NCBI RefSeq assembly: GCF_001646655.1
Contig: NZ_LPZN01000004.1
Coordinates: forward strand, 62,001-126,000
Direction: 5' to 3'
Length of the DNA stretch: 64,000 nucleotides
Source: Rhodococcus gordoniae
GTDB lineage: Bacteria; Actinomycetota; Actinomycetes; Mycobacteriales; Mycobacteriaceae
How positions within the stretch are numbered: position 1 is the first letter of the stretch; every line of letters begins with the position of its first letter. Position numbers and translations under genes: made by a program. The notes under the pieces were generated by a model. It was not told the DNA's origin. It did not search any database and worked only from the letters and a program-made list of their open reading frames with translations. Below are positions 11,220 to 43,744 of the stretch, piece after piece.

Positions 11220-11251
11220 CCTCACCCGGTTTCATCGCATATCTTGGACGC

Positions 11252-12247
11252 GTGTTGCCGGATCTGGACCCGAGACCGCTCCCGAGCCGCCGTCGGTCGG
11301 CTCGGGAATCGGATTGGGATGCCATTCGTGCCTGGACGGACGACAAGTACATGCGGTTCGATGTACGGCCGACGGACCGCACAGCCGTCCCCGCATCGTC
11401 GATGTTCTCGGTACCGATCCACGACATCACCATGACGCGGTTCCGCTACGGCGTAGAAGTCGATCTTCGGAACTTCGATTCCGACGCAGGAAACATCCTG
11501 GTGTTGACCACGATTCGAGGCAGGACACGTCATGCGACAGGAACATACGACGAGACCGAATTGGGTGCGGGCCAGACGTTCGTCGCCGACTGCAGTCGGG
11601 TGGACTATCGGCTCGACGCAGATCCCGACCATCTCCAGCTCAACCTGACGATTCCGCACCGCTTCCTGTCCGATCTCGCCCTGCAGTGGTGGGGCTACGT
11701 TCCCGACGAACGACTGTGGAGTCACCAGTGTGCGGTCGGAGGGCCGGACAGTGCGTGGCTCGCCCTGCTCGACTACGCCACAAGGACGGCTTCGACCGCC
11801 CCGGACGCTGTTGCCGCCGGAAGAATAGGCCACAATCTCCAGGAGATGCTCGCCGCTCACCTGCTCGACGAGTGGGCTCGCTCGGCGGGCATCGACCTCA
11901 CCGGGCCCGCGCCGGTTGCCGCTCCTGGATATGTGCGGCTTGCTGTGCAGTACATCGACGAGCATGCGAAGGATCTGCCCACCGTCACCGAGACGGCATC
12001 AGCAGTGGGCGTCAGTGTCCGTGCCCTCAACGGTGCGTTCAAGAAATATGTGGGGACCTCCCCGCGGGCGTATCTGGTCGAGCAGCGACTGCGCGGCGTT
12101 CGTCGCTCTTTGAGCGCGGGGTCTCCTTCGGTGTCGTCCGCGGCCCACGAATGGGGGTACGTCAACATGGGTGTCTTCGCCGCGGCCTATCGGCGCCGGT
12201 TCGGAGAGAACCCGTCGGAGACCTTGCGTCGAGCGCGCACAGGCTAG
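11252..12247 (+). CDS. AraC-family transcriptional regulator
   Basis: About 331 residues from the GTG at 11252; no strong ribosome-binding site, so the start is uncertain (an ATG at 11351 is an alternative). The N-terminal two thirds is the cupin-like AraC_binding_2 type domain; the C-terminal 100 residues hold two helix-turn-helices (LPTVTETASAVGVSVRALNG and the following KKYVGTSPRAYL, then SAAHEWGYVNMGVFAAAYRRRFGENPSETL split over the second one). It lies 32 bases after the methyltransferase stop, the left edge of the accessory segment, and 109 bases before a co-directional esterase gene it probably controls. Confidence 0.85.
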   Translation: MLPDLDPRPLPSRRRSARESDWDAIRAWTDDKYMRFDVRPTDRTAVPASSMFSVPIHDITMTRFRYGVEVDLRNFDSDAGNILVLTTIRGRTRHATGTYDETELGAGQTFVADCSRVDYRLDADPDHLQLNLTIPHRFLSDLALQWWGYVPDERLWSHQCAVGGPDSAWLALLDYATRTASTAPDAVAAGRIGHNLQEMLAAHLLDEWARSAGIDLTGPAPVAAPGYVRLAVQYIDEHAKDLPTVTETASAVGVSVRALNGAFKKYVGTSPRAYLVEQRLRGVRRSLSAGSPSVSSAAHEWGYVNMGVFAAAYRRRFGENPSETLRRARTG

Positions 12248-29799: not shown

Positions 29800-31386
29800 T
29801 CAGAGCACCAACACTGCGAAGACGGTCGAGAGGATCAGCCCCGCCATCACCGGCAGGAAGCACTTGCGGGCGAGATCCAGCACCGGCACCCGGGCGAAAC
29901 CGGCCACGGCGACCAGCGAGGACCAGGCGATGATGACGCCGCCGCCCGACCAGATGTTCCCCATCTGACCGATCGCCGCGAGCGTCGACGGGTCGACGTC
30001 GACGGCCGGGCCGAGAGCACCCGACAGCGCGCCGGTGAGGGGCAGTCCGCTGAATCCGGAACCGTCGAGTCCCGCGACCACTCCGATGAGCAGAATTCCG
30101 AACGAGGTGACGAAGGCGTTCTGCGGCAGATGTGCCTGCACCGAGGTCACGAGGTCGAACAGGATTGCCGGGCCCGCGGCGTCGGCGGACAGGCCGAGGA
30201 TCGGGCCTGCGAACTCCGGGTTGCCGATGAAGAAGAATCCGGCGATCGGAAGGACGCAGCCCATGGCCTTGAATGCGAAGACCAGACCGTCGACGAGGTG
30301 ATCCGAGGTGGTCTCGAGGAAGCTTCCCCGGTCGGTCGACGCTGCGGCGGCGAACAGGATCAGGGCTGCGATCCCGCCCACGATCGCGGCGGCCTCACCA
30401 CCCTGCAGGGGCGGCACGACCTCGGTGAACTTGCCCAGCATCAGATAGACGATGAACGCGAGGTAGGCCAGCGGCACGAGCATCGCGAACGCCTTGGCGG
30501 TACCGCGACGCTCCTTCTCCGCCTCGGCGGGGTCGGCGACCGGCTCGGACGGAGCCACCAGCACCGCCGTGGCCGCCGTTGCCTGCTCGCCGCCACCACC
30601 GGGCCCGCCGGGACCGCCGGCCGGTTCGGGCCGGCGCGGAAGACGGGAGCCGCCTGCTCCACCCGAGGAGTCGTCGCCGCCACGGGTGTCACCGATGCCG
30701 CTGTCGGCTTCGGATTCCCATTCGACGAGCAGGTCGGCGGACGGTGCACGCCAGTGCCGCTTCTGGACGAAGTAGGTGATGAGCAGTGCCGTGACGCCCA
30801 CGATCAGGGAGAGGACCAGCGCCTTGTCCGCGACGGAGTCGGCGTCGACGCCGGCGGCTGCCGCGGAGATACCGGGTGCGACCTTGATGATGTAGTCCGA
30901 CGACAACGCCATGCCCTGACCGCAGATCGCGATGACCATGCCCACCGACAGCGGGGACATGCCGGCGCGGATCGCGACGGGGATGAGCACTGCGCCGACG
31001 AGGGGCACGGCCGGGGTGGGCCAGAAGAACAGGGAGATCACGTAGGTGACGGCGGCGAGGACGAGGAAGCTGCTGGTGCCCGCGCGCATGACGCGCCGGA
31101 ACGGCGCGACCATCATCCGGTCCGCGCCGAGCTGGCGCAGCGCGCCGAGCATGGCCGTGACCATCGCGATGATGAGGAAGATGTTGAACAGTTCCTTCGC
31201 CGCGACGAGGCTCGCGTTGAAGATGGCCGACAGTCCCGTGACGATGCTGCCCGAGAACGTCAGTGCGGTCAGGAAGGTTGCGACGACTGCAGGAACGACG
31301 ATGTTCTTCCGCAGGGCCATGGTGGCCAGGATGACGAGGATGCCGGCCAGGTAGACCCAGTGCGCGGCGGTGAGGTGTACGTCCAA
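29800..31386 (-). CDS. Ion-transporter (IT) superfamily-like permease
   Basis: A 528-residue membrane protein with about 12 helices in two halves. The first half has FWPTPAVPLVGAVLIPVAIRAGMSPL and a GQGMALSSDYI loop; the second has FIGNPEFAGPILGLSADA and MGNIWSGGGVIIAW. Between them is a hydrophilic Gly/Pro-rich loop of about 75 residues. Layout resembles gluconate/citrate-type permeases, but I cannot name the family firmly. The start is TTG at 31386 (LDVHLTAAHW) with GAAGGA 8 bases upstream. It is divergent from the MFS gene and its control region carries TGTGCAC sites shared with the PucR region, so it is probably part of that regulon. Confidence 0.75.
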   Translation of the reverse strand: MDVHLTAAHWVYLAGILVILATMALRKNIVVPAVVATFLTALTFSGSIVTGLSAIFNASLVAAKELFNIFLIIAMVTAMLGALRQLGADRMMVAPFRRVMRAGTSSFLVLAAVTYVISLFFWPTPAVPLVGAVLIPVAIRAGMSPLSVGMVIAICGQGMALSSDYIIKVAPGISAAAAGVDADSVADKALVLSLIVGVTALLITYFVQKRHWRAPSADLLVEWESEADSGIGDTRGGDDSSGGAGGSRLPRRPEPAGGPGGPGGGGEQATAATAVLVAPSEPVADPAEAEKERRGTAKAFAMLVPLAYLAFIVYLMLGKFTEVVPPLQGGEAAAIVGGIAALILFAAAASTDRGSFLETTSDHLVDGLVFAFKAMGCVLPIAGFFFIGNPEFAGPILGLSADAAGPAILFDLVTSVQAHLPQNAFVTSFGILLIGVVAGLDGSGFSGLPLTGALSGALGPAVDVDPSTLAAIGQMGNIWSGGGVIIAWSSLVAVAGFARVPVLDLARKCFLPVMAGLILSTVFAVLVL

Positions 31387-31501
31387 GGCGTTTCCTTCGA
31401 CAGGAGGGTGGAACGAGTCGGGCTGTGTTCGTGGACGGTGAATGGGCACTCGATGTATTGGGGGAACTTTCCGCTACGGCCCGTGCTCGGTCAACGAGAA
31501 C

Positions 31502-31543
31502 GGTGCACAGTGACCGACACGCTAACTGTGCACTGTGTTCCAC
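31502..31543. promoter_or_regulatory. TGTGCAC-type operator pair between the permease and MFS genes
   Basis: GTGCACAGT (31503-31511) is mirrored by ACTGTGCAC (31525-31533), and the right half continues as TGTGCACTGTGTTCCAC (31527-31543), which matches 14 of 17 bases of a site at 34935-34951 before pucR. The intergenic stretch 31387-31776 (390 bases) holds this and nothing else I can support as a gene. Confidence 0.6.
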
Positions 31544-31776
31544 TTTTGCGATTTCGTGACGCCGAGTCGCTCGCATGTGAAAAATTGCTACGAACATGTG
31601 TCGCGAGCCCGGCGCCGGTCTCGCGATCTCGCCGAATGTGCACTCTGCCCCGGCTCGTCCGGATCCGATGTGCATCTCGACTCCGCGATGGCGATGCATC
31701 CGACGGTAGCGCAGTGCGACAGTGGTCCGACGGTACGAACCGTGCCGCGCACGTTCCCGAGGTTCCGGAGAGTTCG

Positions 31777-33183
31777 ATGACCACTCGCACCGATACACCG
31801 GCAGCGCCGGCAACCGAAACGGATGCAGGCACCCCTACGGCCCTGTCCGCCCTGCTCGCCGGGACCCTCGTCGGGACACTGAGCAACAACATCATCAATG
31901 TCCCACTGCCACAGATTCTTTCCGACTTCGACGCAAGCCTCGACGACGGCGCACTCCTGGCCGTCGGTTTCCTTCTCACTTTCGCTGCGGCGATGCCCCT
32001 CGCGGGGTACATCGGCGACCGATACGGCCGTCGGCGCGTCTACTGCGGCGCCCTGCTCGGCACCGCGATCTGCGCGGCCGGAGCGGCGACGGCGCCGACC
32101 CTCGAGATCCTCGTGGTCTGGCGCGCCCTCGGTGGACTCGCGGCCGCCGCCTTCGCACCGGCCGTCATGGGACTGATCGCGTGGCTGTTCGGCGCACACC
32201 GACGCGCACGCGCGGTGAGCGCGTGGGCCACCGTGAACGGACTCGGCCAGGCCGTCGGCCCCACCCTCGGCGGTTTCGTTGCGGGACAGTGGGGTTGGCG
32301 ATGGGTTTTCGTCCCGATGATTCCGATTGCACTGATCGGACTCGCCGGAACGCTGCGCTGGATCCCGATCTTCCCCGGCCGCCGGATGACCCTCGACGTA
32401 CCCGGCGCGATCGCACTGACACTCGGTTCCGCCGGAGTCGTGCTGGGGCTGAGCATGTTCGGACAGGCGGGGATCCCCACGTCCGTCGCGGGAATCGTGC
32501 TGGCGGTCTCGATCGTCGTACTCGTCGGTTTCGTCGGGCACTGCCTGCGCGCGACCGTACCGTTCGTCGACGTCCGACTGCTGGTCGAGAGCCGGTTCGC
32601 GCGGAGCGCGGCCGCCGCCTTCGCGCAGATGTTCTGCCTGGGTGCGGCCCTGCTGGCCGTGCCGCTGCGGTTGCACGCGACGGGCGCGTCGACGGCCACG
32701 GCCGGGGTGATCCTGTTCGCGCTGCCCGCAGTGATGGCGGCCCTCGCCCCGGTGGTCGGCCGCACCGTCGATCGTGTCGGCGGACGACGGATGTTGCGGG
32801 CGGGACTGGTGGTGCTGCTCGTCGGTCAGGTCGCGCTCGCCGTCGTCCTCTCGGCGGACGAACCGCGCCTGTGGCTCGTCGCGACGGTCCTGGCGATCAC
32901 CGGTGCCGGCATCGCCGCCGTGCAGACCCCTGCAGCGGCAGGATCGACGCGGTCACCGGCGGGTGAGCGCGGGACAGGGCTGGGGGTGTTCAACCTGATC
33001 CGTTTCGGCGGATCGGCCGTGGGGGCGGCGTGGGTGACCGTCGCGCTCGGCTCGTGGACGGTGGGCCCGCTCTTCGCGGTGTGCGCCGTGGTCGTGTGCG
33101 CGGGGTTGGCCGCCTCGTTCCTGGGGACGGATCCGGAGGACACCGAACCCGTCTCCGATTCGACAGCCGTCAGCGGTAGTTGA
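31777..33183 (+). CDS. MFS transporter (EmrB/DHA2-like)
   Basis: A 468-residue protein with 13-14 hydrophobic helices. MFS motif A is GYIGDRYGRRRVY; the export-type helix 5 motif is NGLGQAVGPTLGGFVAGQWGWRWVF. Start at 31777 (MTTRTDTPAA) with GGAG upstream; a much longer frame from 30130 runs antisense through the permease gene and is not real. Its 3' end overlaps the pucR 3' end by 14 bases. Shared operator-like sites link it to the PucR regulon; it may import the substrate or export an intermediate. Confidence 0.87.
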   Translation: MTTRTDTPAAPATETDAGTPTALSALLAGTLVGTLSNNIINVPLPQILSDFDASLDDGALLAVGFLLTFAAAMPLAGYIGDRYGRRRVYCGALLGTAICAAGAATAPTLEILVVWRALGGLAAAAFAPAVMGLIAWLFGAHRRARAVSAWATVNGLGQAVGPTLGGFVAGQWGWRWVFVPMIPIALIGLAGTLRWIPIFPGRRMTLDVPGAIALTLGSAGVVLGLSMFGQAGIPTSVAGIVLAVSIVVLVGFVGHCLRATVPFVDVRLLVESRFARSAAAAFAQMFCLGAALLAVPLRLHATGASTATAGVILFALPAVMAALAPVVGRTVDRVGGRRMLRAGLVVLLVGQVALAVVLSADEPRLWLVATVLAITGAGIAAVQTPAAAGSTRSPAGERGTGLGVFNLIRFGGSAVGAAWVTVALGSWTVGPLFAVCAVVVCAGLAASFLGTDPEDTEPVSDSTAVSGS

Positions 33184-34822
33184 TCTCGTTCTCGACGGAG
33201 GTGCGCAGCCGGTCGAGGAGCTCGAGCCTGACGGCGAGCCAGGCCGTGAACTGGTTCTCCGGTATCCGGACGTCCATCGCCATCGCGCGGGAGATCCGGT
33301 CGAGCTTCGACAGCATCGTGTTGCGATGAACCGACAACTCCCGCGCCGCCGCATTGACGTTCCCGCCGGCCGCGAGATAGGCCGACAGCGTGTCGTAGAG
33401 GTCGGTGCCGGGCTCGAGCGCGCCGAGCACGTCGCCGACGAATCTGCGGCTCCGGTCGGTCTCGGCGACCAACTCGAGCACGCCGTAGCCCCGCAGATCG
33501 CGATACGCCACCGAACCCGACATCCCGAGCCGCTGCCCGATGCCGAGCGCCACGCGGGCCTGCCGGTAGCTCTCGCGGATCTGGTCCGCCCCGACGGCCG
33601 GAGCGCCGTGGGCGACGGGCACCGGGCGCACGCGCCGGCGGGACAGATCCTGTGAGACCGCGTCGGCGTACTCGGCGATCTCGAGTTCGACATCGCGCGG
33701 GTCGCGGTAGCGCAGCGACCGCACCACGACCAGGACGTCGCCGATCACCGTGACGTACGAGCGCACCGACGGATGGGGCAGGACGCTGGCCGCGTACCGG
33801 GCCAACCGCAGCAGTCCGCCGGATTCGTCGCCGCCCGGACCGGCCGGGTTCTCCCCGTAGCCGGGCGCGACGAAGACCGCGAACGTCGAGGTGAGGTCGA
33901 TGTCGTGGTACTCGGCGCGGGCCTGCATGTCGTGCTGGCTGGTGAAGCTGCCGTGCACCAGAGCCTGCACGAAATCGCCGCGGGCCCGTTCCTCGGCCTC
34001 GTCGACACTGCGTTGCCGCAGCATCTCCGACCCGATGATCGCCGTCGCCTGTTCGGTGACGACCGCGTGCTGGGCCAGCTCGTGCGGTCCCGGCGACGGC
34101 CCCGAGGCGAGAACCACCACCCAGCCCTCGAACCGTTTGCCGAGCCGGATGGTGCTCGCCGTGCACGTCCAGTGCGTGCCTCCGACGACCTCCTCCAGCA
34201 CGCGGGTGTCGTGGTGCGCGTGACGATCCGCGGCCGTCACCGCCGACAACTTCTCGAGCAGGATCTCCGAGATGTCGTCCGCCCGGCCGGCATCCACGCC
34301 ATGGAAGGCGACGGCCTGGCCACGCGCGTCGAGCGCGATCGCCGGATGCTGCGCGAGGGCGGAGACCTCCTTGACCAGCAACGTCAGTCCCGCGCCACGG
34401 TGCAGCAGACCGGCGAGCGTCGAGTGCACATGCGCGGAATAGCGCATGACGTGCATTTCCTGCATCAGCGACCGCTCGGCGAGCAACCTGTTGAGCGCCG
34501 CGAACCCCACGGGCAGGTCGAGTTCGATCACCACCGACCCCGGCGGCCAGGACACTCCGGCGGGCGCCGCGCCGTCGACGACCAGCGCCGCGGCGCCGCG
34601 GGCCGCAAGCGCGGACAGAGCGTGCGCGCTGTCGGCGAGCGACTCCGGCCGCATGTACACGGCGACACCGTCGAGATCGTCGAATCGGCCGATGATCTCG
34701 CCGAACGGCAGCACCCAGGTGAGCGCCCGGTCGAGATCGGCCTCCCGATCCACGACCCGGGCGCCCGCCATGAGCGGTTCGTCGAGCAGCCCTCGGACTG
34801 TCAGACGCGGGCTCGATTCCAT
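33170..34822 (-). CDS. PucR-family transcriptional regulator
   Basis: A 550-residue regulator. The N-terminal PucR domain opens with PRLTVRGLLDEPLMAGARVV and runs to about residue 130; a middle GAF-like (GGDEF-related) region follows; the C-terminal helix-turn-helix of the CdaR/PucR type is YLAAGGNVNAAARELSVHRN. The start at 34822 (MESSPRL) has AGCAGG before it. It is divergent from the GlcG-HDO-Rieske operon. PucR proteins control purine, amino-acid or aromatic catabolism; the inducer here is unknown. TGTGCAC-type sites in its promoter and upstream of the MFS/permease pair suggest one regulon. Confidence 0.9.
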   Translation of the reverse strand: MESSPRLTVRGLLDEPLMAGARVVDREADLDRALTWVLPFGEIIGRFDDLDGVAVYMRPESLADSAHALSALAARGAAALVVDGAAPAGVSWPPGSVVIELDLPVGFAALNRLLAERSLMQEMHVMRYSAHVHSTLAGLLHRGAGLTLLVKEVSALAQHPAIALDARGQAVAFHGVDAGRADDISEILLEKLSAVTAADRHAHHDTRVLEEVVGGTHWTCTASTIRLGKRFEGWVVVLASGPSPGPHELAQHAVVTEQATAIIGSEMLRQRSVDEAEERARGDFVQALVHGSFTSQHDMQARAEYHDIDLTSTFAVFVAPGYGENPAGPGGDESGGLLRLARYAASVLPHPSVRSYVTVIGDVLVVVRSLRYRDPRDVELEIAEYADAVSQDLSRRRVRPVPVAHGAPAVGADQIRESYRQARVALGIGQRLGMSGSVAYRDLRGYGVLELVAETDRSRRFVGDVLGALEPGTDLYDTLSAYLAAGGNVNAAARELSVHRNTMLSKLDRISRAMAMDVRIPENQFTAWLAVRLELLDRLRTSVENEINYR

Positions 34823-34886
34823 GGGGACCTGCTTCCCTCGGGAGCATCTGCGGGCCGCGAGGGGGTGGGCCCGCCGACACCGTGGC

Positions 34887-34951
34887 GGTGTGCACTTTCT
34901 ACACCAGTTACCAGAGTCATGGGTCACAGACACATGTGCACTGTGTACACC
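34887..34951. promoter_or_regulatory. Two operator-like sites upstream of pucR and the redox operon
   Basis: Site A is GGTGTGCACTTTCTACACC (34887-34905), with GGTGT/ACACC ends in inverted order. Site B is TGTGCACTGTGTACACC (34935-34951), containing the palindromes GTGCAC and GTGTACAC. Both share the pattern TGTGCACT-N4-ACACC, taken as spacing between half-sites. They lie in the 328-base divergent region 34823-35150, which shows no gene. Autoregulation and operon control by PucR is inferred. Confidence 0.6.
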
Positions 34952-35150
34952 GAATTACGAAAACGACGGTGATCTTGACCGTCCCCATCGGCGCGCAGCC
35001 CTGTTAGAAATGAGCCACGCCGGACACACCGCTTCACCACTCCGGCACCCGCCGACACTTCAGCGACGCGGCATCGGCGGGACGCATCCGGATCCCGACG
35101 CGGACCAGGAATCGTCCGACTCTCCGACCCGACCTCGAAAGTGGACACCC

Positions 35151-35600
35151 ATGCATCGAATCCACCGCATCACCCTCGACGACGCACTCCCCCTGCTGGC
35201 CGCCGGCCGCGCGAAGGCCGAGGAGATCGGCGTGAAGCAGACCCTGTGTGTCTGCGACGAGAGCGCGAACGTCATTGCTCTGCACCGGCTTCCCGGCGCC
35301 CGCTTGACCGGTGTCGAGATCGCCATGGCGAAGGCGTTCACCGCCGCCGGGCACGAGCGCGCCACCCACCTGTTCAACGAGGGCCCCAACGGACCCGCCC
35401 TCCCCGGCAACGAGGCGTTCGGCATCAGCCACATGCTCCCCGGGAAGTTCGCGATCTTCGTCGGCGGCTTCCCCCTCGTCTACGACGGGCAGATCGTCGG
35501 CGCCGTCGGCATCAGCGGCGGCAACGGCGAGCAGGACAAAGCGGTCGGCGCCGCCATGATCGCCGAATTCGAAGCTCTGACCTCCGCGATCAACGCCTGA
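35151..35600 (+). CDS. GlcG/HbpS-family protein
   Basis: A 149-residue single-domain protein: LDDALPLLAAGRAKAEEIGV, CVCDESANVIALHRLPGARLTGVEIAMAKA split by a short turn, and the C-terminal GGFPLVYDGQIVGAVGISGG, which is the GlcG/HbpS signature. Family members bind haem or small ligands, or act as accessory proteins in catabolic operons. The start is the ATG at 35151 without a clear ribosome-binding site. It is the first gene of the redox operon, 40 bases before the diiron enzyme gene. Role unknown. Confidence 0.87.
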   Translation: MHRIHRITLDDALPLLAAGRAKAEEIGVKQTLCVCDESANVIALHRLPGARLTGVEIAMAKAFTAAGHERATHLFNEGPNGPALPGNEAFGISHMLPGKFAIFVGGFPLVYDGQIVGAVGISGGNGEQDKAVGAAMIAEFEALTSAINA

Positions 35601-35640
35601 TCGCATCCCCCGCACGACCTCCTCACCGAAAGGCATCATC

Positions 35641-36360
35641 ATGACCGAACTGCTCGGACGCGACGAATTCCGCGCCGCACTCGAAGACGCCATCAAGGGA
35701 CGCGAGGCCAAGAACGCCTCGTTCAGCAAGGCGTGGGCCGAGGGCAAGCTCGAAAAGCACCACTTCGCCCGGTGGGCCGAGAACCACTACCACTACGTCG
35801 GCCCCTTCGCCGACTACCTGGCGAACATCTACTCCAACACCCCCGATCACTTCACCGACGCCAAGGACTTCACCCTCCAGAACATGTACGAGGAGGAACT
35901 GGCCGACATCCGGCACACCGACCTGCTCATCAAGTTCGCCGAGGCGTGCGGCACCACCAAGGAGCGCGTCGAGGATCCGAACAACATGAACGCCGTGACG
36001 CGCGGCCTGCAGGCGTGGTGCTACGCGGTGTCCCAGCGCGAACACTTCGTCGTCGCCACCGCGGCGCTGGTCGTCGGCCTCGAATCGCAGGTGCCGAGCA
36101 TCTACAAGAAGCAGATCGTCCCGCTGCGCGAGGTGTACGGATTCACCGAGGACGAGATCGAGTTCTTCGACCTGCACATCACCTCCGATGTGGTGCACGG
36201 TGAGCGCGGCTACCAGATCGTCCTGGACTGCGCCGACACCCCGCAGCTGCAGCAGCGCTGCCTGCAGCTCGTCCGCTGGGGAGCGGAGATGCGCTTCTCG
36301 TACACGAAGGGCCTGTACGACACGTACGTCGCTCCCGATCTGGAGCTGGCGTCCGCCTGA
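35641..36360 (+). CDS. Haem-oxygenase-like diiron enzyme (HDO superfamily; TenA/PqqC-like fold)
   Basis: A 239-residue all-helical protein. Homology at first sight is to TenA/PqqC, but a full set of diiron ligands of the HDO superfamily (CADD, UndA, SznF, BesC) is present: Glu85-x6-His92 in EELADIRH, Glu148 in GLESQVPSIY, and His179-x3-Asp183-x2-His186 in HITSDVVH. HDO enzymes activate O2 for N-oxygenation, C-C cleavage or oxidative amine chemistry. AAAGG lies before the ATG. It is followed by Rieske ferredoxin and ferredoxin-reductase genes that could deliver electrons. The reaction is unknown; a cofactor-less PqqC-like role is the main alternative. Confidence 0.82.
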   Translation: MTELLGRDEFRAALEDAIKGREAKNASFSKAWAEGKLEKHHFARWAENHYHYVGPFADYLANIYSNTPDHFTDAKDFTLQNMYEEELADIRHTDLLIKFAEACGTTKERVEDPNNMNAVTRGLQAWCYAVSQREHFVVATAALVVGLESQVPSIYKKQIVPLREVYGFTEDEIEFFDLHITSDVVHGERGYQIVLDCADTPQLQQRCLQLVRWGAEMRFSYTKGLYDTYVAPDLELASA

Positions 36361-36429
36361 TCCGATGTGCGGGAGCGGAAGTCGCTCGCGGCTTCCGCTC
36401 CCGATGTCGCACACGAGCGAAGGAGAAGC

Positions 36430-36831
36430 ATGTCCACCGAAATCATGGGCAGCGGGACCACCGGCACCGATGCCGCAACGGAGTCCCCGGCCTGGGTCGC
36501 CGTCGCCACGGTGAAAGAGGTGACCCGCCGCCGCAAACTCCGCGTGGAGGTCGCCGGCCTCGCGATCGCACTGTTCCATGCGAACGACCGCATCTACGCC
36601 TTCGCCGACCTGTGCATCCACCAGGACCGCTCGCTCGTGAAGGGCACGCTCCTGCACGGCCGGGTCATCTGCCCGGGCCACCAGTGGCGCTTCGATCTCG
36701 AGACCGGATACGAAGAGGACCAGGACCTCTGCCAGCCGGTCTATCCCGTCCTCGTGCGCGACGAGACCGTCCTCGTCGACCCCACCCCGCGTCCGGCACC
36801 GGCCGCATCCGGAAAGGAGTGCACGGCATGA
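36430..36831 (+). CDS. Rieske [2Fe-2S] ferredoxin, low-potential type
   Basis: A 133-residue soluble Rieske protein. Cluster ligands are Cys62-x-His64 (LCIHQD) and Cys81-x2-His84 (CPGHQW), 16 residues apart, the C-x-H-x15-17-C-x2-H pattern of dioxygenase-type Rieske ferredoxins. It lacks the two extra disulfide cysteines of bc1-type proteins. About 35 N-terminal residues look disordered. AGGAGA lies at 36421-36426, just before the ATG at 36430. Its stop overlaps the reductase start (ATGA). It probably passes electrons from the reductase to the diiron enzyme. Confidence 0.9.
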   Translation: MSTEIMGSGTTGTDAATESPAWVAVATVKEVTRRRKLRVEVAGLAIALFHANDRIYAFADLCIHQDRSLVKGTLLHGRVICPGHQWRFDLETGYEEDQDLCQPVYPVLVRDETVLVDPTPRPAPAASGKECTA

Positions 36832-38054
36832 CCGTTCGCACCGTAGTCACCGTGGGCGCCGGCCAGGTCGCCGCCGTCGCCGCACGCACCCTGCGTCGCC
36901 GCGGCTTCGACGGACGGATCGTGCTGCTCGGCGACGAGCAGCACGCCCCCTACCAGCGTCCGCCCCTGTCGAAGGAATTCCTCGCGGGCTGTGAAGGAGT
37001 CGACTCCCTCGCGCTGCTGACCCGGAAATGGCTCGACGCCAACGACATCGACATCCGCACGGGCGTGTCGGTGCAGCGCATCGACACCGCGACCCGCACC
37101 GTCGAGTTCGACGGCGGCGAGATCGCCGCCGACGCGATCGTCCTCGCGACGGGCGGACGCCCCCGCACCCTCACCACCACCGGATCCCGTCCCGATCTCG
37201 TCCACTACCTGCGCACTGTCGACGACGCGACCGCCCTCGCGGCACGCCTGACCCCGGGGTCGAGTCTCGCAATCGTCGGTGGCGGCTTCATCGGACTCGA
37301 GATCGCCGCGACGGCACGATCTCTCGGCGTGACGGTGACGGTCCTCGAACAGGCCGAACACCTGCTCGGAGGCATTCTCGGCGAGCGGGTCGGCGGCCAC
37401 TGCGCCGATCTGCACCGCCGCAACGGCGTCGACCTGCGCACCGGCACGGGTGTCGCCTCGGTGACCACCTCCGACAGCGGCGTACGGATCGAGACCACCA
37501 CCGGCGGGATCGTCGAGGCCGACGCCGTGGTGGTCGGTATCGGCATCGTGCCCAACACCGACATCGCGGCGGCGAGCGGACTGACCGTCGACGGTGGGGT
37601 CGTGGTCGACGCCACCGGACGTACCTCGGTCGAGAACATCTACGCGGCAGGCGACGTCGCGAAGCGCTTCTCACCGAGGGAAGGCCGGCACATCCGCGTC
37701 GAGCACTTCGACAACGCGAACCGGCAGGCCGCGGTGGTCGCCGACACGATCGCCGGACGGCAGTCGCTCTCCGACGACCCGCACTGGTTCTGGTCGGATC
37801 AATACGACACCAACATCCAGTTCGCCGGATCGGCTTCCGGAACAACCGAACTCGTCGTCCGAGGTGATGCCGGCAGCGGAGAGTTCTCCGTCTTCTATCT
37901 CGCGGGAGACGTATTGACCGCCGCCTTCGCGATGGACCGCGGCGAGGACATCATGGCGGCCCGCGAACTCGTCGGACGCCGAGTGGACGCGGCGCTGCTC
38001 GCCGACGAGGACACCGATCTGTGGGAGATGTACGAGGAGGTCGAGCCCGCATGA
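36828..38054 (+). CDS. FAD-dependent ferredoxin reductase
   Basis: A 408-residue reductase of the oxygenase-coupled glutathione-reductase fold (BphA4/rubredoxin-reductase type). Seen: FAD motif VTVGAGQVAAVAARTLRRRG, QRPPLSKEFLAG, NAD(P)H motif LAIVGGGFIGLEIAATA, and IYAAGDVA with the C-terminal VEHFDNANRQ. The second glycine pattern in the first motif (GAGQVA) is normal for the type. ATG at 36828 overlaps the Rieske stop, and its own stop overlaps the aldehyde dehydrogenase start, so the three are tightly coupled. It should reduce one or both Rieske ferredoxins with NAD(P)H. Confidence 0.93.
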   Translation: MTVRTVVTVGAGQVAAVAARTLRRRGFDGRIVLLGDEQHAPYQRPPLSKEFLAGCEGVDSLALLTRKWLDANDIDIRTGVSVQRIDTATRTVEFDGGEIAADAIVLATGGRPRTLTTTGSRPDLVHYLRTVDDATALAARLTPGSSLAIVGGGFIGLEIAATARSLGVTVTVLEQAEHLLGGILGERVGGHCADLHRRNGVDLRTGTGVASVTTSDSGVRIETTTGGIVEADAVVVGIGIVPNTDIAAASGLTVDGGVVVDATGRTSVENIYAAGDVAKRFSPREGRHIRVEHFDNANRQAAVVADTIAGRQSLSDDPHWFWSDQYDTNIQFAGSASGTTELVVRGDAGSGEFSVFYLAGDVLTAAFAMDRGEDIMAARELVGRRVDAALLADEDTDLWEMYEEVEPA

Positions 38055-39505
38055 CGATCACCGGCCTGAACCACATCGACGGCAACTGGGTACCGGCGGC
38101 CTCCGGAGCGGTCTTCGAACGCCGCAACCCGGCCGACGAGACCGATCTGATCGGCACCTTCCCGGATTCCGACAGCGTCGACGTCCGCAACGCCGTCGGC
38201 GCACTCGACAAGGCCGCGCCCGAATGGGCCGCCACCCCGCCGGAACGCCGCGCCGCGATCCTCGAAGCGGCCGCCGACCACCTCGCCGCGCGCTCGGCCG
38301 AACTCGTCGACGAACTGATCCGCGAGGAGGGCAAGACCCGCACCGAAGCGTCGATGGAGGTGAGCCGCACCCCCATGAACCTGCGCTTCTACGCGGGTGA
38401 AGCGCTGCGCGCCACCGGTGCGACCTTCCCGGCCCCCGGATCCACGACGATCTACACCGTGCGCGAACCGATCGGGATCGTCGGTGCCATCACACCGTGG
38501 AACTTCCCGCTCAACATCCCCTCCCGCAAGCTCGGGCCGGCGCTCGCCGCCGGCAACACGGTGCTGTTCAAGCCGTCCGAGATCACCCCGCTGATGGGGC
38601 AGCGACTCGTCGAGGCCCTGCTCGCCGGTGGTCTGCCGCCCGGCGCGATCGCACTCGTCCAGGGCGACGGCAAGGCAGGCGCGGCCGTGTCCGGCGACGA
38701 ACGGGTCGCGGCCGTGACCTTCACCGGCTCCACCGAGGTCGGACGCGCCATCCACCGCAGCGTCGGCCCCGACCGGCGCGTGCAGCTGGAGATGGGCGGC
38801 AAGAACCCCGTCGTCGTGCTGGCCGACGCCGACCTCGACGCCGCAGCCGCACTGATCGTCAAGGGCGCCTTCGGATTGTCGGGCCAGGCGTGCACCGGCA
38901 CCAGCCGTGTCGTCGCCGTCGACGCAATCCACGACGAGTTGCTCGAGAAGGTCGCCGAACGCACCCGCGCCCTGCGGGTGGGACCGGGTTCGGGTGCCGC
39001 CGTCGACCTCGGCCCGCTCGCGAGTCGCGGTCAGCTCGACAAGTTCCTCGAGTACGTCACCATCGGCACGGACGAAGGCGCACGGCTCGTGTGCGGTGGC
39101 GCGCGATGCGACGACGATGCGCTGCGAGACGGATTCTTCGTGCGGCCCACAGTGTTCGCGGACACCGCACCGGGGATGCGCCTGCTCACCGACGAGATCT
39201 TCGGACCCGTGCTGGCCTTCCAGCGCGCCGGTTCCTTCGACGAAGCCCTCGCCCTGGCGAACGACACCGCCTTCGGGCTCAGCGCCTCCGTCGTCACCCG
39301 GAGCCTCTCGGACGCCCAGCGATTCGTCGCCGGATCGAGGACCGGACTCGTGAAGGTCAACCAGCCCACCACGGGAATGGCCATGAACGCACCGTTCGGC
39401 GGTTACAAGCAGTCGAGCACGCAGACCTTCAAGGAACAGGCCGGCCCCACGCTCATGCAGTTCTACCAATCCGAGAAGACCGTCTACCTCGCCCCCGACG
39501 CCTGA
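38051..39505 (+). CDS. Aldehyde dehydrogenase of the redox operon
   Basis: A 484-residue NAD(P)-dependent aldehyde dehydrogenase. Catalytic base Glu247 (QLEMGGKNP) and nucleophile Cys281 (LSGQACTGTS) are present, along with PWNFPLNIPSRKLGPALAAG and FTGSTEVGRAIH. It is closest in look to oxoglutarate/succinate-semialdehyde and 2,5-dioxovalerate dehydrogenases, but this cannot be fixed by eye. It starts 4 bases inside the reductase gene (ATGA). It probably oxidises an aldehyde released by the diiron oxygenase step. Confidence 0.93.
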   Translation: MTITGLNHIDGNWVPAASGAVFERRNPADETDLIGTFPDSDSVDVRNAVGALDKAAPEWAATPPERRAAILEAAADHLAARSAELVDELIREEGKTRTEASMEVSRTPMNLRFYAGEALRATGATFPAPGSTTIYTVREPIGIVGAITPWNFPLNIPSRKLGPALAAGNTVLFKPSEITPLMGQRLVEALLAGGLPPGAIALVQGDGKAGAAVSGDERVAAVTFTGSTEVGRAIHRSVGPDRRVQLEMGGKNPVVVLADADLDAAAALIVKGAFGLSGQACTGTSRVVAVDAIHDELLEKVAERTRALRVGPGSGAAVDLGPLASRGQLDKFLEYVTIGTDEGARLVCGGARCDDDALRDGFFVRPTVFADTAPGMRLLTDEIFGPVLAFQRAGSFDEALALANDTAFGLSASVVTRSLSDAQRFVAGSRTGLVKVNQPTTGMAMNAPFGGYKQSSTQTFKEQAGPTLMQFYQSEKTVYLAPDA

Positions 39506-39542
39506 CCGGCGAACACCCCTACACATGCCTGGAGGAAAGACC

Positions 39543-39899
39543 ATGGAGTTCAAACGAGTGGCCCGATCCGGGCAGGTGCCCGAAGGCATCGTCCGCCGGT
39601 TCTACGCCGACGACTACGAGTTCGCCGTCTCCCGGCTCGACGGCAAGGCGTACGCGACATCCAACTACTGCTCGCATCTCGACTGCCTGCTCTCGTCCGG
39701 CAAGCTCGTCCAGGACGGCATCGGATGCTCCTGCCACGGAAGCGCGTTCGACCTCGAGACCGGTGAGCCGATCTGCCCTCCGGCCACCGAGCCGATCAAG
39801 ACCTATCCGTGCGAGGAGCGCGACGGGGAGATCTTCGTCGGGATCGACCCCGCCGAGCCGCCGGAAGGACCGCGCCGACGCAGGATGCGGTCGGCATGA
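39543..39899 (+). CDS. Rieske [2Fe-2S] protein, high-potential (bc1-like) type
   Basis: A 118-residue Rieske protein. Box I is CSHLDC (ligands Cys43, His45; extra Cys48) and box II is CSCHGS (ligands Cys62, His65; extra Cys64). The extra pair Cys48/Cys64 and the Ser after Gly are the features that raise the potential in cytochrome bc1 and b6f Rieske proteins, here in a soluble ferredoxin with no membrane anchor. Start at 39543 (MEFKRV) with GGAGGAAAG just upstream; a start at 39525 would use that site as codons. Its stop overlaps the next gene (ATGA). Confidence 0.9.
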   Translation: MEFKRVARSGQVPEGIVRRFYADDYEFAVSRLDGKAYATSNYCSHLDCLLSSGKLVQDGIGCSCHGSAFDLETGEPICPPATEPIKTYPCEERDGEIFVGIDPAEPPEGPRRRRMRSA

Positions 39900-41494
39900 C
39901 CCGGCGCGCTGTACGACCGGCGACGCTCGCTACCGGGGGCATGGTCGCGTCGAGTCATCCGCTCGCGAGTCGGGCCGGGGTCCGCGTGCTCGAAGACGGT
40001 GGTAACGCCGTCGACGCGGCCCTGGCGATGGCGGCGGTCACGTGGCTGACCCTGCCCGGGCAATGCGGCATCGGTGGCGACGCCTTCGCCGTGGTGCGCG
40101 AACCGGACGGATCGGTGTGGACGGTCAACGGCAGTGGTTACGGACCCGACGGCGGCACACCGGATTTCTACCGGGAACACGGACTCGGCGCGATCCCGCT
40201 CGACGGGGCGCTCGCCGTCGCCGTGCCCGGTGCGCCCGCCGCGCTGGCCGCACTGCACCGGCGGGGAGCGAGCAGGTCGCTGCCCGAACTGTGGGCACCG
40301 GCCGCCCGTCTCGCCGGAAGCGGCCTGCCCTGCTCGGCGAAGACTCGGACCGATGTGCAGACCGCCCTCCATGCGATCCGCGGCGACGCCGGACTCGCCT
40401 CGGTGTACACCCCGGGCGACCGTTTCCCGCGCGTCGGCGACATACTGCCGCAACCGGATCTGGCCCGCACCATCCGTGCTCTCGCCGACGATCCGGGATC
40501 GTTCTACACCGGCGCGCTCGCCGAACGCTGTGTGGCTACGCTGCAGGGGTGCGGAGCACCGTTCACCGGCGACGAATGGCAGGCCGGGGCGACAGTGGAC
40601 GCGGAAGCACCGCTCACCGCCACCTATGCGGGGCACGTCGTGCACCAGACCCCGCTCCCGACGCCGGGATGGATGGTGCTGCACCAGGCCGCCCTGTGCG
40701 ACGGCGCACTCGGCACGCATCCCGTACTCGGGGCGGCATCGATCGACCGGATGGCCCGCGCGGCCACCCTCGCCTTCGAGGACAGACTCCGCTGGTGTTC
40801 GTCGGACAACGACGGGGTCGCGCGGGTGCTCGACCCCGCGAATATCGCAGCGGGTCGCGCACGGATCGACGAGCGTGCACCGGCCGGGGCGTTCGCGGTC
40901 GCCGCCGGGGACACCACGTCGTTCGTCGCCGTGGACGCCGACGGGCGGGCGGTGTCGTTCATCCATTCGCTGGCGTTCACCTTCGGCGCGAAACTCACCG
41001 TGCCCGGCACCGGCATCGTGCTCAACAACCGGCTCGGTCGCGGTGCCTACCTGATCGACGGTCACCCCAACGAGGTTGCACCGCGCCGCAAGCCCCTGCA
41101 CACACTCAACGCGTGGATCGTCACCGACTCGGCGGGCGAGCTGCGGCACGTCGGCAACACCCCCGGCGGCGACGGTCAGGTGCAGTGGAACATGCAGTTG
41201 CTGTCGCACCTGCTCGATCACGGTCTCGATCCCCAGGAGGCGGTCTCGGCGCCGCGCTTCACCGTCTTCCCCGGATCGGACGCCGACGTGCTCGGCGAAC
41301 CGACCGCGTTGCGGATCGAAGGCGACGTCGCCGACGGTGTGTGCGACGAACTGCGCCGGCTCGGTCACCGGGTGGAGATGCTCGAACCACTGGGCGCCGA
41401 CGGAAGCGCACAGGTGATCTCGATCGACGACCGCGGAGTGCTGTCCGGCGGCAGCGATCCACGACAGGAGGGGGTGGCGCTCGGTGTCCTCTGA
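39896..41494 (+). CDS. Gamma-glutamyltransferase-family Ntn hydrolase
   Basis: A 532-residue enzyme of the gamma-glutamyltranspeptidase family. The N-terminal GMVASSHPLASRAGVRVLEDGGNAVDAALAMA is typical (shown here as a single family block), and the autocleavage/nucleophile site is GDTTSFVAVDADG, with Thr340 the expected new N-terminus of the small subunit. There is no signal peptide, so it is cytoplasmic, unlike classical exported Ggt. It should hydrolyse a gamma-glutamyl or other N-acyl bond. No gamma-glutamyl ligase is in the operon, so the natural substrate is open. Confidence 0.88.
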   Translation: MTRRAVRPATLATGGMVASSHPLASRAGVRVLEDGGNAVDAALAMAAVTWLTLPGQCGIGGDAFAVVREPDGSVWTVNGSGYGPDGGTPDFYREHGLGAIPLDGALAVAVPGAPAALAALHRRGASRSLPELWAPAARLAGSGLPCSAKTRTDVQTALHAIRGDAGLASVYTPGDRFPRVGDILPQPDLARTIRALADDPGSFYTGALAERCVATLQGCGAPFTGDEWQAGATVDAEAPLTATYAGHVVHQTPLPTPGWMVLHQAALCDGALGTHPVLGAASIDRMARAATLAFEDRLRWCSSDNDGVARVLDPANIAAGRARIDERAPAGAFAVAAGDTTSFVAVDADGRAVSFIHSLAFTFGAKLTVPGTGIVLNNRLGRGAYLIDGHPNEVAPRRKPLHTLNAWIVTDSAGELRHVGNTPGGDGQVQWNMQLLSHLLDHGLDPQEAVSAPRFTVFPGSDADVLGEPTALRIEGDVADGVCDELRRLGHRVEMLEPLGADGSAQVISIDDRGVLSGGSDPRQEGVALGVL

Positions 41495-41528
41495 CATTGC
41501 TCCGCAACGGGTGTCCTCTGACATTGCT
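41483..41528. repeat. 19-base direct repeat covering the RidA start codon
   Basis: GGTGTCCTCTGACATTGCT occurs at 41483-41501 and again at 41510-41528, a 27-base period, in frame. It gives the RidA protein a doubled N-terminal VSSDIA segment and two equivalent GTG starts. Looks like a small tandem duplication or slippage event. Confidence 0.85.
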
Positions 41529-41942
41529 GCTGTCGCACCGCGTCCGCAGGGCCGGTACGTCCCCGCCGTACTGGCCGGCGACACCGTCCGCACGGCGGGC
41601 ATGACGCCCCGGCGCGACGGCGAACTGATACTCACCGGGCGGGTCGGCGCGGAGGTCACCGTCGACGAGGCACGTGCCGCCGCGATCGTCGCGGTGGGCA
41701 ACGCGCTGGCGGCGATCCGTGCGGCGCTGCCGGAGGGCACACCGTTCCGGCCGGTCGAGATGGTCGTCTACGTCGCGACCGCGCCCGGGTTCACCGACCT
41801 GTCGGTGGTCGCGGACGGCGCGTCGAACGTGATCGAACGCCAACTCGGTGTCGCCGCACTACCGGCACGCACCGCCGTCGGCGTCCACACCCTGCCCGGT
41901 GGAGCGCCGCTCGAGATCGCACTGACCGCCGTGTGCGGATAA
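41484..41942 (+). CDS. RidA/YjgF/Rid-family protein
   Basis: About 152 residues from the GTG at 41484 (143 if the second GTG at 41511 is used). The Rid core is clear: VRTAGMTPRRDGEL, AAAIVAVGNALAAIRAAL, MVVYVATAPGFTDL, and the C-terminal LPARTAVGVHTLPGGAPLEIALTAV, carrying the Arg and Glu of the deaminase-type active site. Rid proteins hydrolyse reactive enamines/imines. The gene overlaps the gamma-glutamyltransferase stop and ends the redox operon, suggesting an imine or enamine intermediate in the pathway. Confidence 0.88.
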   Translation: MSSDIAPQRVSSDIAAVAPRPQGRYVPAVLAGDTVRTAGMTPRRDGELILTGRVGAEVTVDEARAAAIVAVGNALAAIRAALPEGTPFRPVEMVVYVATAPGFTDLSVVADGASNVIERQLGVAALPARTAVGVHTLPGGAPLEIALTAVCG

Positions 41943-42040: not shown

Positions 42041-42616
42041 TCACCTCTTCGCGCCGATGTCCTCGAGTTCGGCTGCGAGATCGACACTCTCGGACGGTCG
42101 CTGCCACCGATACACTCCCCCGCCCTGGGCGTAGGAGAGGTGACCGCCGAGCGCGCCGCCGACACTTACGGCGCCGAGACCGACCAGGGTCCACACCGTC
42201 CCCGTCCGGTCGTGCCGTGCGCGACGCGCGCGATAGGACGTCGCCATGCAGATCGCCCCGATCGCGTTGGATACAGCATGCACCGCGCCGACCCTGCGCT
42301 GAGGAACATCGAGGGTGGAGAAGTCGGCGTATCCGGTGATCACGGTCGGAACGGCCGCGGCCAGTCCGAGGGCGACGAGTTTCCGGGACGCGTCCCGCTG
42401 GCCGGGCAGCGCATCCAATACGGCAGCGGAGATCCACGATCCGATCGGGACGGTGACGAGGAGGGGATGGACGGGGTGTCCGAGCCAGGAACCTCGGAGC
42501 AGGTCGTCGACGACGGAACCGTCGAGGACTCGCCGTATGCGCTGCGCGACGCGCTCGGCGGGCCGATCCACAGCGTCGAAGAATTCGACGGCGCGCAGGA
42601 GTTCGTGCAGGTTCAT
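42041..42616 (-). CDS. DUF2231-family membrane protein
   Basis: A 191-residue protein with four hydrophobic helices. It has the DUF2231 signature: LRGSWLGHPVHPLLVTVPIG, then ITGYADFSTLDVPQRRVGAVHA, then SVGGALGGHLSYAQGGGV. The conserved histidines in GHPVHP and VGAVHAV are at the helix ends and look like haem ligands, which is only inference. I choose the ATG at 42616 (MNLHELLRAV); longer frames to 42709 or beyond have no supporting ribosome-binding site. Confidence 0.82.
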   Translation of the reverse strand: MNLHELLRAVEFFDAVDRPAERVAQRIRRVLDGSVVDDLLRGSWLGHPVHPLLVTVPIGSWISAAVLDALPGQRDASRKLVALGLAAAVPTVITGYADFSTLDVPQRRVGAVHAVSNAIGAICMATSYRARRARHDRTGTVWTLVGLGAVSVGGALGGHLSYAQGGGVYRWQRPSESVDLAAELEDIGAKR

Positions 42617-42746
42617 GATGGGGCGATACCCGTCGGCAGCAGATACGAATCGCCGGGTGACCGCGATGCGACGGCACCCTTCGATCGCTGACCATGACGA
42701 GGGCGGCATTCGTATTTCTGTCGTATCCCGAGGGCACCATGTGGCC

Positions 42747-43744
42747 GTGACCGAAAAGACCGTCGGGCTTCCCGAGGACTATCCGCAATTCCTGGACGAA
42801 CTCGAAGCACAGGTTCGTCGAGCGCGTCTACGGGCTACACGCGCCGCGAATACCGAACTGCTGATCCTGTATTGGACGCTCGGGCACTCCCTTCTCGAGC
42901 GTCAACATGTACACGGCTGGGGATCGAAGGTCGTCGACCAACTGGCCAGGGACCTGCGCTCCGAGTTTCCACACATGCGCGGTCTCTCGCGCCGCAATCT
43001 CTTCTACATGCGGTCCTTCTCGACAAGCTCGACAATCGAGAGCTTCGCGACTGGTACGCAGCTCGCGCAGCAGAACACGGGTGGTCGCGTCACGTTCTGA
43101 CCATCAGATCGCCGGGCAGTTACATCGCCGTGTAGGTGCCGCACCGTCGAATTTTCCGGACCATCTTCCTCCACAGGACTCCGACCTCGCACAGCAACTC
43201 GTTCCGCGACCCGTACATCTTCGATTTCCTCGATCTCGACGAGCGGGCCGCGGAACGAGAACTCGAAGCGGCACTGATGACACGCCTCGAACAGGTACTC
43301 CTCGAACTGGGGCACGGGTTCGCGTTCGTCGGCCGCCAGTACCACTTCACCGTCGACCACGACGACTTCTACATCGACCTGCTCTTCTTCAACTGGATTC
43401 AGTCGCGCTTCGTGGTGGTCGAGCTGAAGATCGGCCGGTTCGAGCCCGAATACGCCGGCAAACTCGGTTTCTACGTCTCCTGGGTGGACGAGAACCTGCG
43501 AGTCGCGGACCGGCACGCACCGACCATCGGGATCCTGCTGTGCGCGGGGCGCAACGACAACGTCGTGCGCTATTCGCTCGCGGGCACGACCGCTCCCTTG
43601 GCGGTTGCGAACTACACCTACGACACCCTGCCCGAACCCATCCGCGAACTCGTGCCTACCGACAGCGAACTCGCCGACGCGGTCGATGCGACCTGGGACG
43701 AGCTCACGCCGGACCGCACCGACGGAGACGATCCGCAGAGCTGA
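42747..43744 (+). pseudogene. Broken YhcG-type (DUF1016) PDDEXK nuclease gene
   Basis: Pieces of one protein occur in three frames in order. 42747-about 43010: VTEKTVGLPEDYPQFLDELEAQ to LSRRNLFYMRSF (N-terminal DUF1016 domain). Then in another frame LLDKLDNRELRDWYAARAAEHGWSRHVL, with roughly 20 residues missing before it. Then a third frame gives SNFPDHLPPQDSDLAQQL, and finally RDPYIFDFLDLDERAAEREL to the end, with the catalytic core DFYIDLLFFNWIQ and VVVELKIGRFEPEYAGK. At least three frameshifts and one deletion. The C-terminal 200 residues remain open. A decayed mobile-type nuclease, perhaps a relic of transfer. Confidence 0.85.

Follow-up and report, generated by a model that had tools for sequence, protein, structure and literature searches.

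A conserved gene set of Rhodococcus gordoniae that probably encodes a catabolic route built around a multicomponent HDO oxygenase

In the genome of Rhodococcus gordoniae (assembly GCF_001646655.1, 4.8 Mb), a stretch of 64,000 nucleotides on contig NZ_LPZN01000004.1 (C63 in our numbering; positions 62,001 to 126,000, referred to below as the window) carries a set of genes grouped around an HDO-type dimetal oxygenase, which is predicted to work with its own electron chain in the breakdown of a nitrogen compound. Eight plus-strand genes lie within 35151–41942, divergent from a minus-strand gene for a PucR-family regulator, in the order HbpS/GlcG, HDO, a Rieske ferredoxin (Rie1), FAD reductase, aldehyde dehydrogenase (ALDH), a second Rieske protein (Rie2), Ggt-fold hydrolase and Rid. 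A divergent pair of transporter genes, T6 and MFS (29800–33183), belongs to the same set. The members and their promoter regions, with positions counted from the first base of the window, are as follows.

29800–31386, minus strand: T6 membrane protein of about 530 residues, a probable importer, with orthologues in related loci (start codon uncertain, TTG at 31386)
31387–31776: divergent promoter region of T6 and MFS, with TGTGCA copies, including TGTGCACTGTGT at 31527
31777–33183, plus strand: MFS transporter (PF07690; best NCBIfam model DHA2 efflux EmrB, below cut-off)
33170–34822, minus strand: PucR-family regulator (PF13556, PF17853)
34823–35150: divergent promoter region of PucR and HbpS, with TGTGCACTGTGT at 34935
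35151–35600, plus strand: HbpS/GlcG-family protein (PF03928)
35641–36360, plus strand: HDO-type dimetal oxygenase (PF14518; presumed ligands E85, H92, E148, H179, D183 and H186)
36430–36831, plus strand: Rie1, dioxygenase-type Rieske ferredoxin (CxH...CxxH), from profile match and ligand motifs
36828–38054, plus strand: FAD/NAD ferredoxin reductase (HcaD/AndAa-like, below cut-off)
38051–39505, plus strand: ALDH (best NCBIfam models 2,5-dioxovalerate and alpha-ketoglutarate semialdehyde dehydrogenases, below cut-off)
39543–39899, plus strand: Rie2, a Rieske protein of small size that has the additional invariant Cys C48 and C64 (alternative in-frame ATG at 39525)
39896–41494, plus strand: Ggt-fold Ntn hydrolase with nucleophile T340, gamma-glutamyl-binding residues not kept
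41484–41942, plus strand: Rid-family protein, a presumed imine/enamine deaminase (best solved relatives 3d01 and PA0814)

The original prediction, made from the window alone, had named genes for PucR, the HDO, two Rieske proteins, the reductase, ALDH, a Ggt-like hydrolase and Rid, and each of these proved to be an open frame of the family named, at the coordinates listed above. The seven co-directional genes that it placed divergent from PucR are indeed there, preceded by an eighth, the HbpS/GlcG gene, which it had overlooked together with the divergent transporter pair. Its description of these genes as mostly joined by 4-base overlaps fits three of the six junctions between the seven enzymes (Rie1/reductase, reductase/ALDH and Rie2/Ggt, each an ATGA overlap), but not the other three, which comprise one 11-base overlap, if Rid starts at GTG 41484, and two gaps of 69 and 37 bases. 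For the Rid gene, two alternative GTG starts arise from a direct repeat of 18 bases, GTGTCCTCTGACATTGCT (41484–41528). Further downstream, the open frames 42315–43100 and 43136–43744 appear by eye to be pieces of one apparently broken DUF1016/YhcG-type nuclease gene.

Conservation of the set in other genomes, by which the original prediction proposed to be checked, was examined by scanning GTDB genomes with the HDO sequence. This yielded 493 relatives, of which the best 80 loci (numbered with the letter L) were analysed, the other 413 standing outside the counts. Partners were counted in the 60 of these 80 loci that extend at least 9 kb to either side of the HDO gene, 20 loci with short flanks being excluded, at a threshold of E 1e-6 or better or, more strictly, with at least 40% identity over half of the query. 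Genes in the other loci were called with a simple script, which also trimmed some starts in the window, and Rieske matches below 42% identity (cross-hits between Rie1 and Rie2) were dropped from the residue, arrangement and stricter counts and kept in the basic partner and adjacency counts. Rie1, the reductase, Rie2 and Rid were matched in all 60 loci, PucR and ALDH in 59, and HbpS, Ggt, T6 and MFS in 58. The stricter counts were unchanged except for PucR (42), ALDH (58) and T6 (47 of 60), some T6 matches being split in pieces or cut by the end of the locus, so that 47 of 60 have at least half the length in one piece. Members found missing were HbpS in L059, Ggt in L066 and L068, MFS in L071 and L087, T6 in L088 and L090, and PucR, HbpS and ALDH in L075.

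The gene set is far more conserved than the other genes of the window: 40 of the latter, taken as a control, had a median of 0 matches in the 49 of the 60 loci that are not from Rhodococcus, versus 47–49 of 49 for the cluster genes. The exceptions were c2018_3577 and c4669_6159, matched in 48/49 and 29/49 loci, which may or may not be paralogues of cluster families. The HDO protein itself is 95–99% identical to the HDOs of the Rhodococcus loci L013–L023, and the set is present in 12 of 18 genomes of the genus and, at E 1e-40, in 2 of 296 genomes of the phylum, its own genome included. Thirteen arrangements were found among the 60 loci (a missing gene counting as a difference), that of the window in 36 of them. 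The HDO-Rie1-reductase-Rie2 block is retained, whereas ALDH, Ggt, Rid, HbpS and the transporters shift around it. Of the 76 loci that extend far enough (4 of the 80 left out), 75 have the HDO, Rie1 and reductase genes side by side on one strand, the sole exception by the rule of the script being L023, in which the Rie1 match begins at the last base of the HDO match, with no gap; Rie2 follows the reductase, directly or with ALDH alone between, in 73 of 74.

Judged by eye, the set is flanked by dnaX in the window and three further loci of Rhodococcus and by ribosomal protein genes in 16–17 loci, mostly from Mycolicibacterium, indicating that the set occupies different chromosomal places. This conservation despite changing arrangement, seen against the control genes, suggests that the set is probably kept together by function. 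In the Mycolicibacterium loci (L037, L039 and others), the cluster borders, from about 16.3 kb on, L14, L24 and L5-like ribosomal genes as judged by eye. DUF1275 membrane proteins were also seen near the cluster in 38 of 82 loci (Pfam-checked for L024, 16314–17018, and L056, 9147–9956 on the minus strand).

The HDO protein scores 124 bits against PF14518 (cut-off 28.9), and its nearest solved sequences are CADD-type p-aminobenzoate (pABA) synthases and PqqC. Placed with the help of what we take to be the ligand numbers of CADD, all six presumed diiron ligands recur unchanged in 82 of 82 sequences, both betaproteobacterial HDOs (see below) included; metal binding is predicted. Two residues of CADD, Tyr27 and Lys152, are consumed in its reaction (PMC11965152, PMC13108848). 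These align with Ser29 and Gln158 of the HDO, which are likewise invariant (82/82). A self-consuming pABA synthase is therefore an unlikely identity for the HDO, and a free substrate is to be expected. An identity as pABA synthase was rejected on the absence of the sacrificial residues and on a score of 95.1 bits against TIGR04305 (CADD/NePabS), far from the cut-off of 200, and an identity as PqqC on the residues and on 45.8 bits against TIGR02111, with a cut-off of 240. A second PF14518 protein is encoded on another contig of the same genome (G000, C51, 204362–204880) and scores higher, at 187 bits.

Rie1 and the reductase score best against the ferredoxin and reductase models of the anthranilate AndA and phenylpropionate Hca systems, below cut-off, and Rie1 shows plain CxH and CxxH ligand motifs in 79 of 79 sequences. 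Rie2 keeps its ligand residues in 74/74 and has its extra C48 and C64 in 74/74 as well; these cysteines are not found in five aligned dioxygenase ferredoxins, yet such ferredoxins give Rie2 its best PDB scores. Extra cysteines beside the ligand motifs form the disulfide signature of high-potential (bc1/b6f-like) Rieske proteins. The invariant pair thus points to a Rieske type different from that of Rie1, so that the two Rieske ferredoxins originally predicted are both Rieske proteins but probably of different types, and Rie2, with its bc1-like Cys, is more likely to be a high-potential carrier or redox switch than to duplicate the donor role of Rie1.

A whole-genome profile search gave one match to Ring_hydroxyl_A (PF00848) and 10 to P450 (PF00067), none of them on contig C63, and inspection by eye of the loci's 45 largest gene clusters revealed no Rieske oxygenase alpha subunit. 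The earlier claim that the cluster has neither type of enzyme therefore holds, and the HDO is the only oxygen-activating candidate of the set. Two betaproteobacterial loci bear on this. In Cupriavidus metallidurans (L093) and on a Caballeronia plasmid (L094), HDOs that are 69% and 67% identical to that of R. gordoniae are accompanied by ALDH, HbpS and T6, and the Rie1, Rie2, Ggt and Rid queries found no match in these two loci. In both clusters there is a BenC-like reductase, which stays under the BenC cut-off and carries a plant-type 2Fe-2S domain (from a profile test in L093, assigned by clustering in L094). They also share an ornithine-cyclodeaminase (OCD)-family protein; its best models, which again stay under their cut-offs, include cyclic-imine and iminosuccinate reductases, and this would fit an imine intermediate but is no proof of one. 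Beside the HDO cluster of L094, a dioxygenase pair and small 2Fe-2S proteins occupy 204–1995 and 10783–11730 (minus strand). Two different electron donors next to one HDO are the best sequence evidence that the HDO consumes electrons, and since the near-constant adjacency to Rie1 and the reductase agrees with this, the HDO is likely the terminal oxygenase of the Rie1/reductase chain.

In the ALDH, the catalytic Cys is kept in 75 of 75 and the Glu in 75 of 76 aligned rows with a letter; no PDB match was found at a strict 1e-100, and no NCBIfam model lay above its cut-off among the 25 matches listed. The nucleophile T340 of the Ggt-fold protein is present in all 67 rows with a letter (70 loci matched). 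At its positions 89, 382, 402 and 403, which correspond to what we take to be the gamma-glutamyl-binding residues R114, D433, S462 and S463 of E. coli Ggt, the expected Arg, Asp, Ser and Ser occur in 0/67, 0/67 (with Arg in 67), 0/66 and 0/66 rows. The protein scores 240 bits against TIGR00066 (cut-off 358), and the solved relatives that match it best are named as a Ggt-related protein and a cephalosporin acylase. Of the N-acyl/gamma-glutamyl hydrolase in the original prediction, the amidohydrolase fold thus stands, but action on gamma-glutamyl groups is unlikely, and we take the protein to be an amidohydrolase of other specificity. Gamma-glutamylation pathways occur for isopropylamine and aniline; such a pathway was rejected here on the site of the Ggt-fold protein and on the 45 largest clusters, in which no glutamine-synthetase-like gene was seen by eye.

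Relatives of HbpS in the PDB include NahX and EfgA, the latter a formaldehyde sensor. Rid has its presumed catalytic Arg, R129, placed by comparison with RidA, in 69/69 rows and E144 in 66/66 rows with a letter. Its best solved relatives include PA0814, a Rid1 protein for which a broad imine deaminase activity is described (PMC5619798). Together, the catalytic residues of ALDH, the amidohydrolase-fold protein and Rid fit the breakdown of a nitrogen compound via an aldehyde and an imine or enamine, as originally proposed.

T6 has no Pfam or NCBIfam match at E 0.001, and its comparison with PDB sequences gave nothing better than E 0.56; its membrane spans were judged by eye only. A paralogue in the same genome, 46% identical (L110, 4896–6455), has an amidase nearby, with one gene between, and L110 also holds an isochorismatase-family hydrolase whose best models are RutB and biuret hydrolase, below cut-off. 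In L114 a T6 paralogue directly adjoins an amidase, and on an Arthrobacter plasmid (L095) a T6-family gene, a luciferase-like oxygenase, an amidase, an ALDH and a TetR-Rid fusion lie in one region. A second T6 is found near the cluster in 13 of the best 80 loci, in 11 of which an amidase stands beside it, at least 72% identical to the L111 amidase (the same gene as in L030); of the remaining two, L034 shows a weak partial amidase match and L018 none. Seven plasmid records have a T6 match, and 6 of these are records with the HDO. The position of T6 paralogues near amidases points to small amides, acids or nitrogen heterocycles as the substrate class, with the HDO in the place that a ring-opening oxygenase would have.

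The 12-mer TGTGCACTGTGT is shared by both divergent promoter regions, and its looser form, TGTGCACNGTG, occurs in the 64 kb at these two promoter sites only. To extend this to the other loci, TGTGCA was counted in upstream regions of at least 300 bases and in shuffles of them. Upstream of T6 it was present in 66 of 69 regions, with a mean of 3.6 copies versus 0.35 in the shuffles (28% of which contained it). The PucR regions had it in 55 of 69 cases, with 1.1 copies versus 0.19 (present in 17% of shuffles). The longer TGTGCAC, found in 58 of 71 T6 regions and just 27 of 72 PucR regions, was rejected as a general element, only the core TGTGCA being general. The transporters are thus likely part of one regulon with the oxygenase cluster, and PucR, which would bind the shared element, probably controls both divergent promoters.

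On balance, we consider it reasonably probable that the set is a catabolic regulon around a multicomponent HDO oxygenase for a small nitrogen-containing acid or amide. From the gene content, its conservation and co-location, the catalytic residues and the shared upstream element, we infer the following electron path and reactions. T6 would import the acid or amide, and the FAD reductase would take electrons from NADH and hand them via Rie1 to the diiron HDO. With O2, the HDO would then oxidise the substrate, most likely with C-C or C-N cleavage, to an aldehyde beside an acylated nitrogen. ALDH would convert the aldehyde to an acid, the Ggt-fold amidohydrolase would free an enamine or imine, and Rid would hydrolyse this product to a 2-oxo acid and ammonium; in the betaproteobacterial clusters, the OCD-family enzyme may handle the imine. 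Rie2 would probably act within the oxygenase block in the role suggested above, and HbpS could be an aldehyde- or cofactor-binding helper.

A number of observations weigh against this reading. The fold and active site of the HDO are argued from sequence, and the HDOs studied so far are described as needing no protein effector (PMC13108848). Some loci are without members (Ggt in L066 and L068; ALDH, PucR and HbpS in L075), PucR reaches at least 40% identity in just 42 of 60 loci, and ten loci have a distant ALDH of 40–45% identity. The electron argument is countered in L094 by two small 2Fe-2S proteins directly upstream of the HDO and by an alternative electron user, as genes annotated as the alpha and beta subunits of a ring-hydroxylating dioxygenase lie about 10 kb away. 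As for the substrate, the neighbours of the T6 paralogue in L112 are an SDR and an ALDH, with no amidase, and the best scores of the MFS protein, being against efflux models, could mean export.

Such export would suit a biosynthetic cluster, in which an unusual amino acid or small natural product, formed by the HDO, leaves the cell through the MFS protein, and the HDO functions named in a review are biosynthetic (PMC13108848). A look by eye at the loci's 45 largest gene clusters, which were not profile-annotated, revealed no assembly enzyme, and amidases are often near T6 paralogues. ALDH, an amidohydrolase fold, Rid and PucR moreover form a catabolic pattern, and we consider a biosynthetic role unlikely. 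Slightly less likely again is a detoxification or stress module for aldehyde, imine and redox protection, in which the target of the HDO, the Rieske proteins and HbpS would be a toxic metabolite and not a nutrient. Although Rid and ALDH proteins are often detoxifying and HbpS counts EfgA among its relatives, the patchy spread of the set (12/18 in the genus and 2/296 in the phylum) and its two transporters fit an optional nutrient better.

The electron chain could also have no part in the HDO reaction: Rie1, the reductase and Rie2 might serve another oxygenase in trans, with the HDO being a cofactor-free, PqqC-like or a self-consuming, CADD-like enzyme. Its nearest solved relatives are indeed of these two types, and the dioxygenase of L094 offers such a partner. 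We nevertheless think this improbable, as the six presumed ligands are invariant, Ser29 and Gln158 replace the sacrificial residues in 82/82 sequences, and the chain stays beside the HDO across 13 arrangements, while the single Ring_hydroxyl_A match of the whole genome lies on another contig. Returning to the catabolic regulon, there is a real chance that it represents the first catabolic HDO pathway. Only tentatively would we go as far as a four-component oxygenase (HDO, Rie1, FAD reductase and high-potential Rieske protein) that is the first catabolic HDO and opens a nitrogen heterocycle, accompanied by a new family of transporters for compounds of this kind, and with its chain swapped for a BenC-like reductase in betaproteobacteria.

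About a dozen of more than 10,000 HDOs have a validated function according to the review cited above (PMC13108848). The regulon described here is conserved across many actinobacterial genera, and its predicted HDO electron chain would be natural, self-contained and suited to reconstitution. The set also defines a transporter family, T6, to which no Pfam or NCBIfam model matches, and it points to a nitrogen-compound pathway in soil bacteria. The original prediction knew of no described pathway with the same content, and a term search of the open-licence PMC literature, which would miss other wording, likewise showed none among the titles and abstract starts listed. Of the outcomes named in advance as refuting the original prediction, none was thus encountered: the set is conserved, the presumed iron ligands do not vary, and no pathway of the same content came up in this search.

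Among known systems, the ring-opening pathways of pyridine and trigonelline employ an oxygenase followed by ALDH, amidase and deamination, a logic shared by the set described here and by the region of the Arthrobacter plasmid L095; there, however, the oxygenase is a flavin enzyme and not an HDO, and L095 adds genes for an acyl-CoA ligase and an enoyl-CoA hydratase. Toluene 4-monooxygenase-type diiron systems have a chain of reductase, Rieske ferredoxin and diiron oxygenase, as proposed for the HDO locus, but differ in the unrelated, ferritin-like fold of the oxygenase and in their effector protein. Three-component Rieske dioxygenases (AndA, Hca) have the Rieske ferredoxin and FAD reductase that are present here, with the HDO in place of their oxygenase alpha/beta subunits. 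CADD/NePabS (PMC11965152) are nearest to the HDO in sequence and have the same presumed six-ligand dimetal site, their sacrificial Tyr and Lys being Ser29 and Gln158 in this HDO, for which a free substrate is expected. MboA and MboB of mangotoxin biosynthesis are perhaps the first characterised dedicated pair of an HDO and a redox partner, MboA being driven by an NAD(P)H-dependent reductase with flavin and Fe2S2 (PMC13185094), of the same kind as in the Cupriavidus and Caballeronia HDO clusters. That system makes a peptide natural product, and the word Rieske is absent from the main text of its description (PMC13185094), whereas the actinobacterial form here combines a reductase and two Rieske proteins with a catabolic-looking gene set. 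The locus would thus be a further case of an HDO with a redox partner, of another kind than MboAB.

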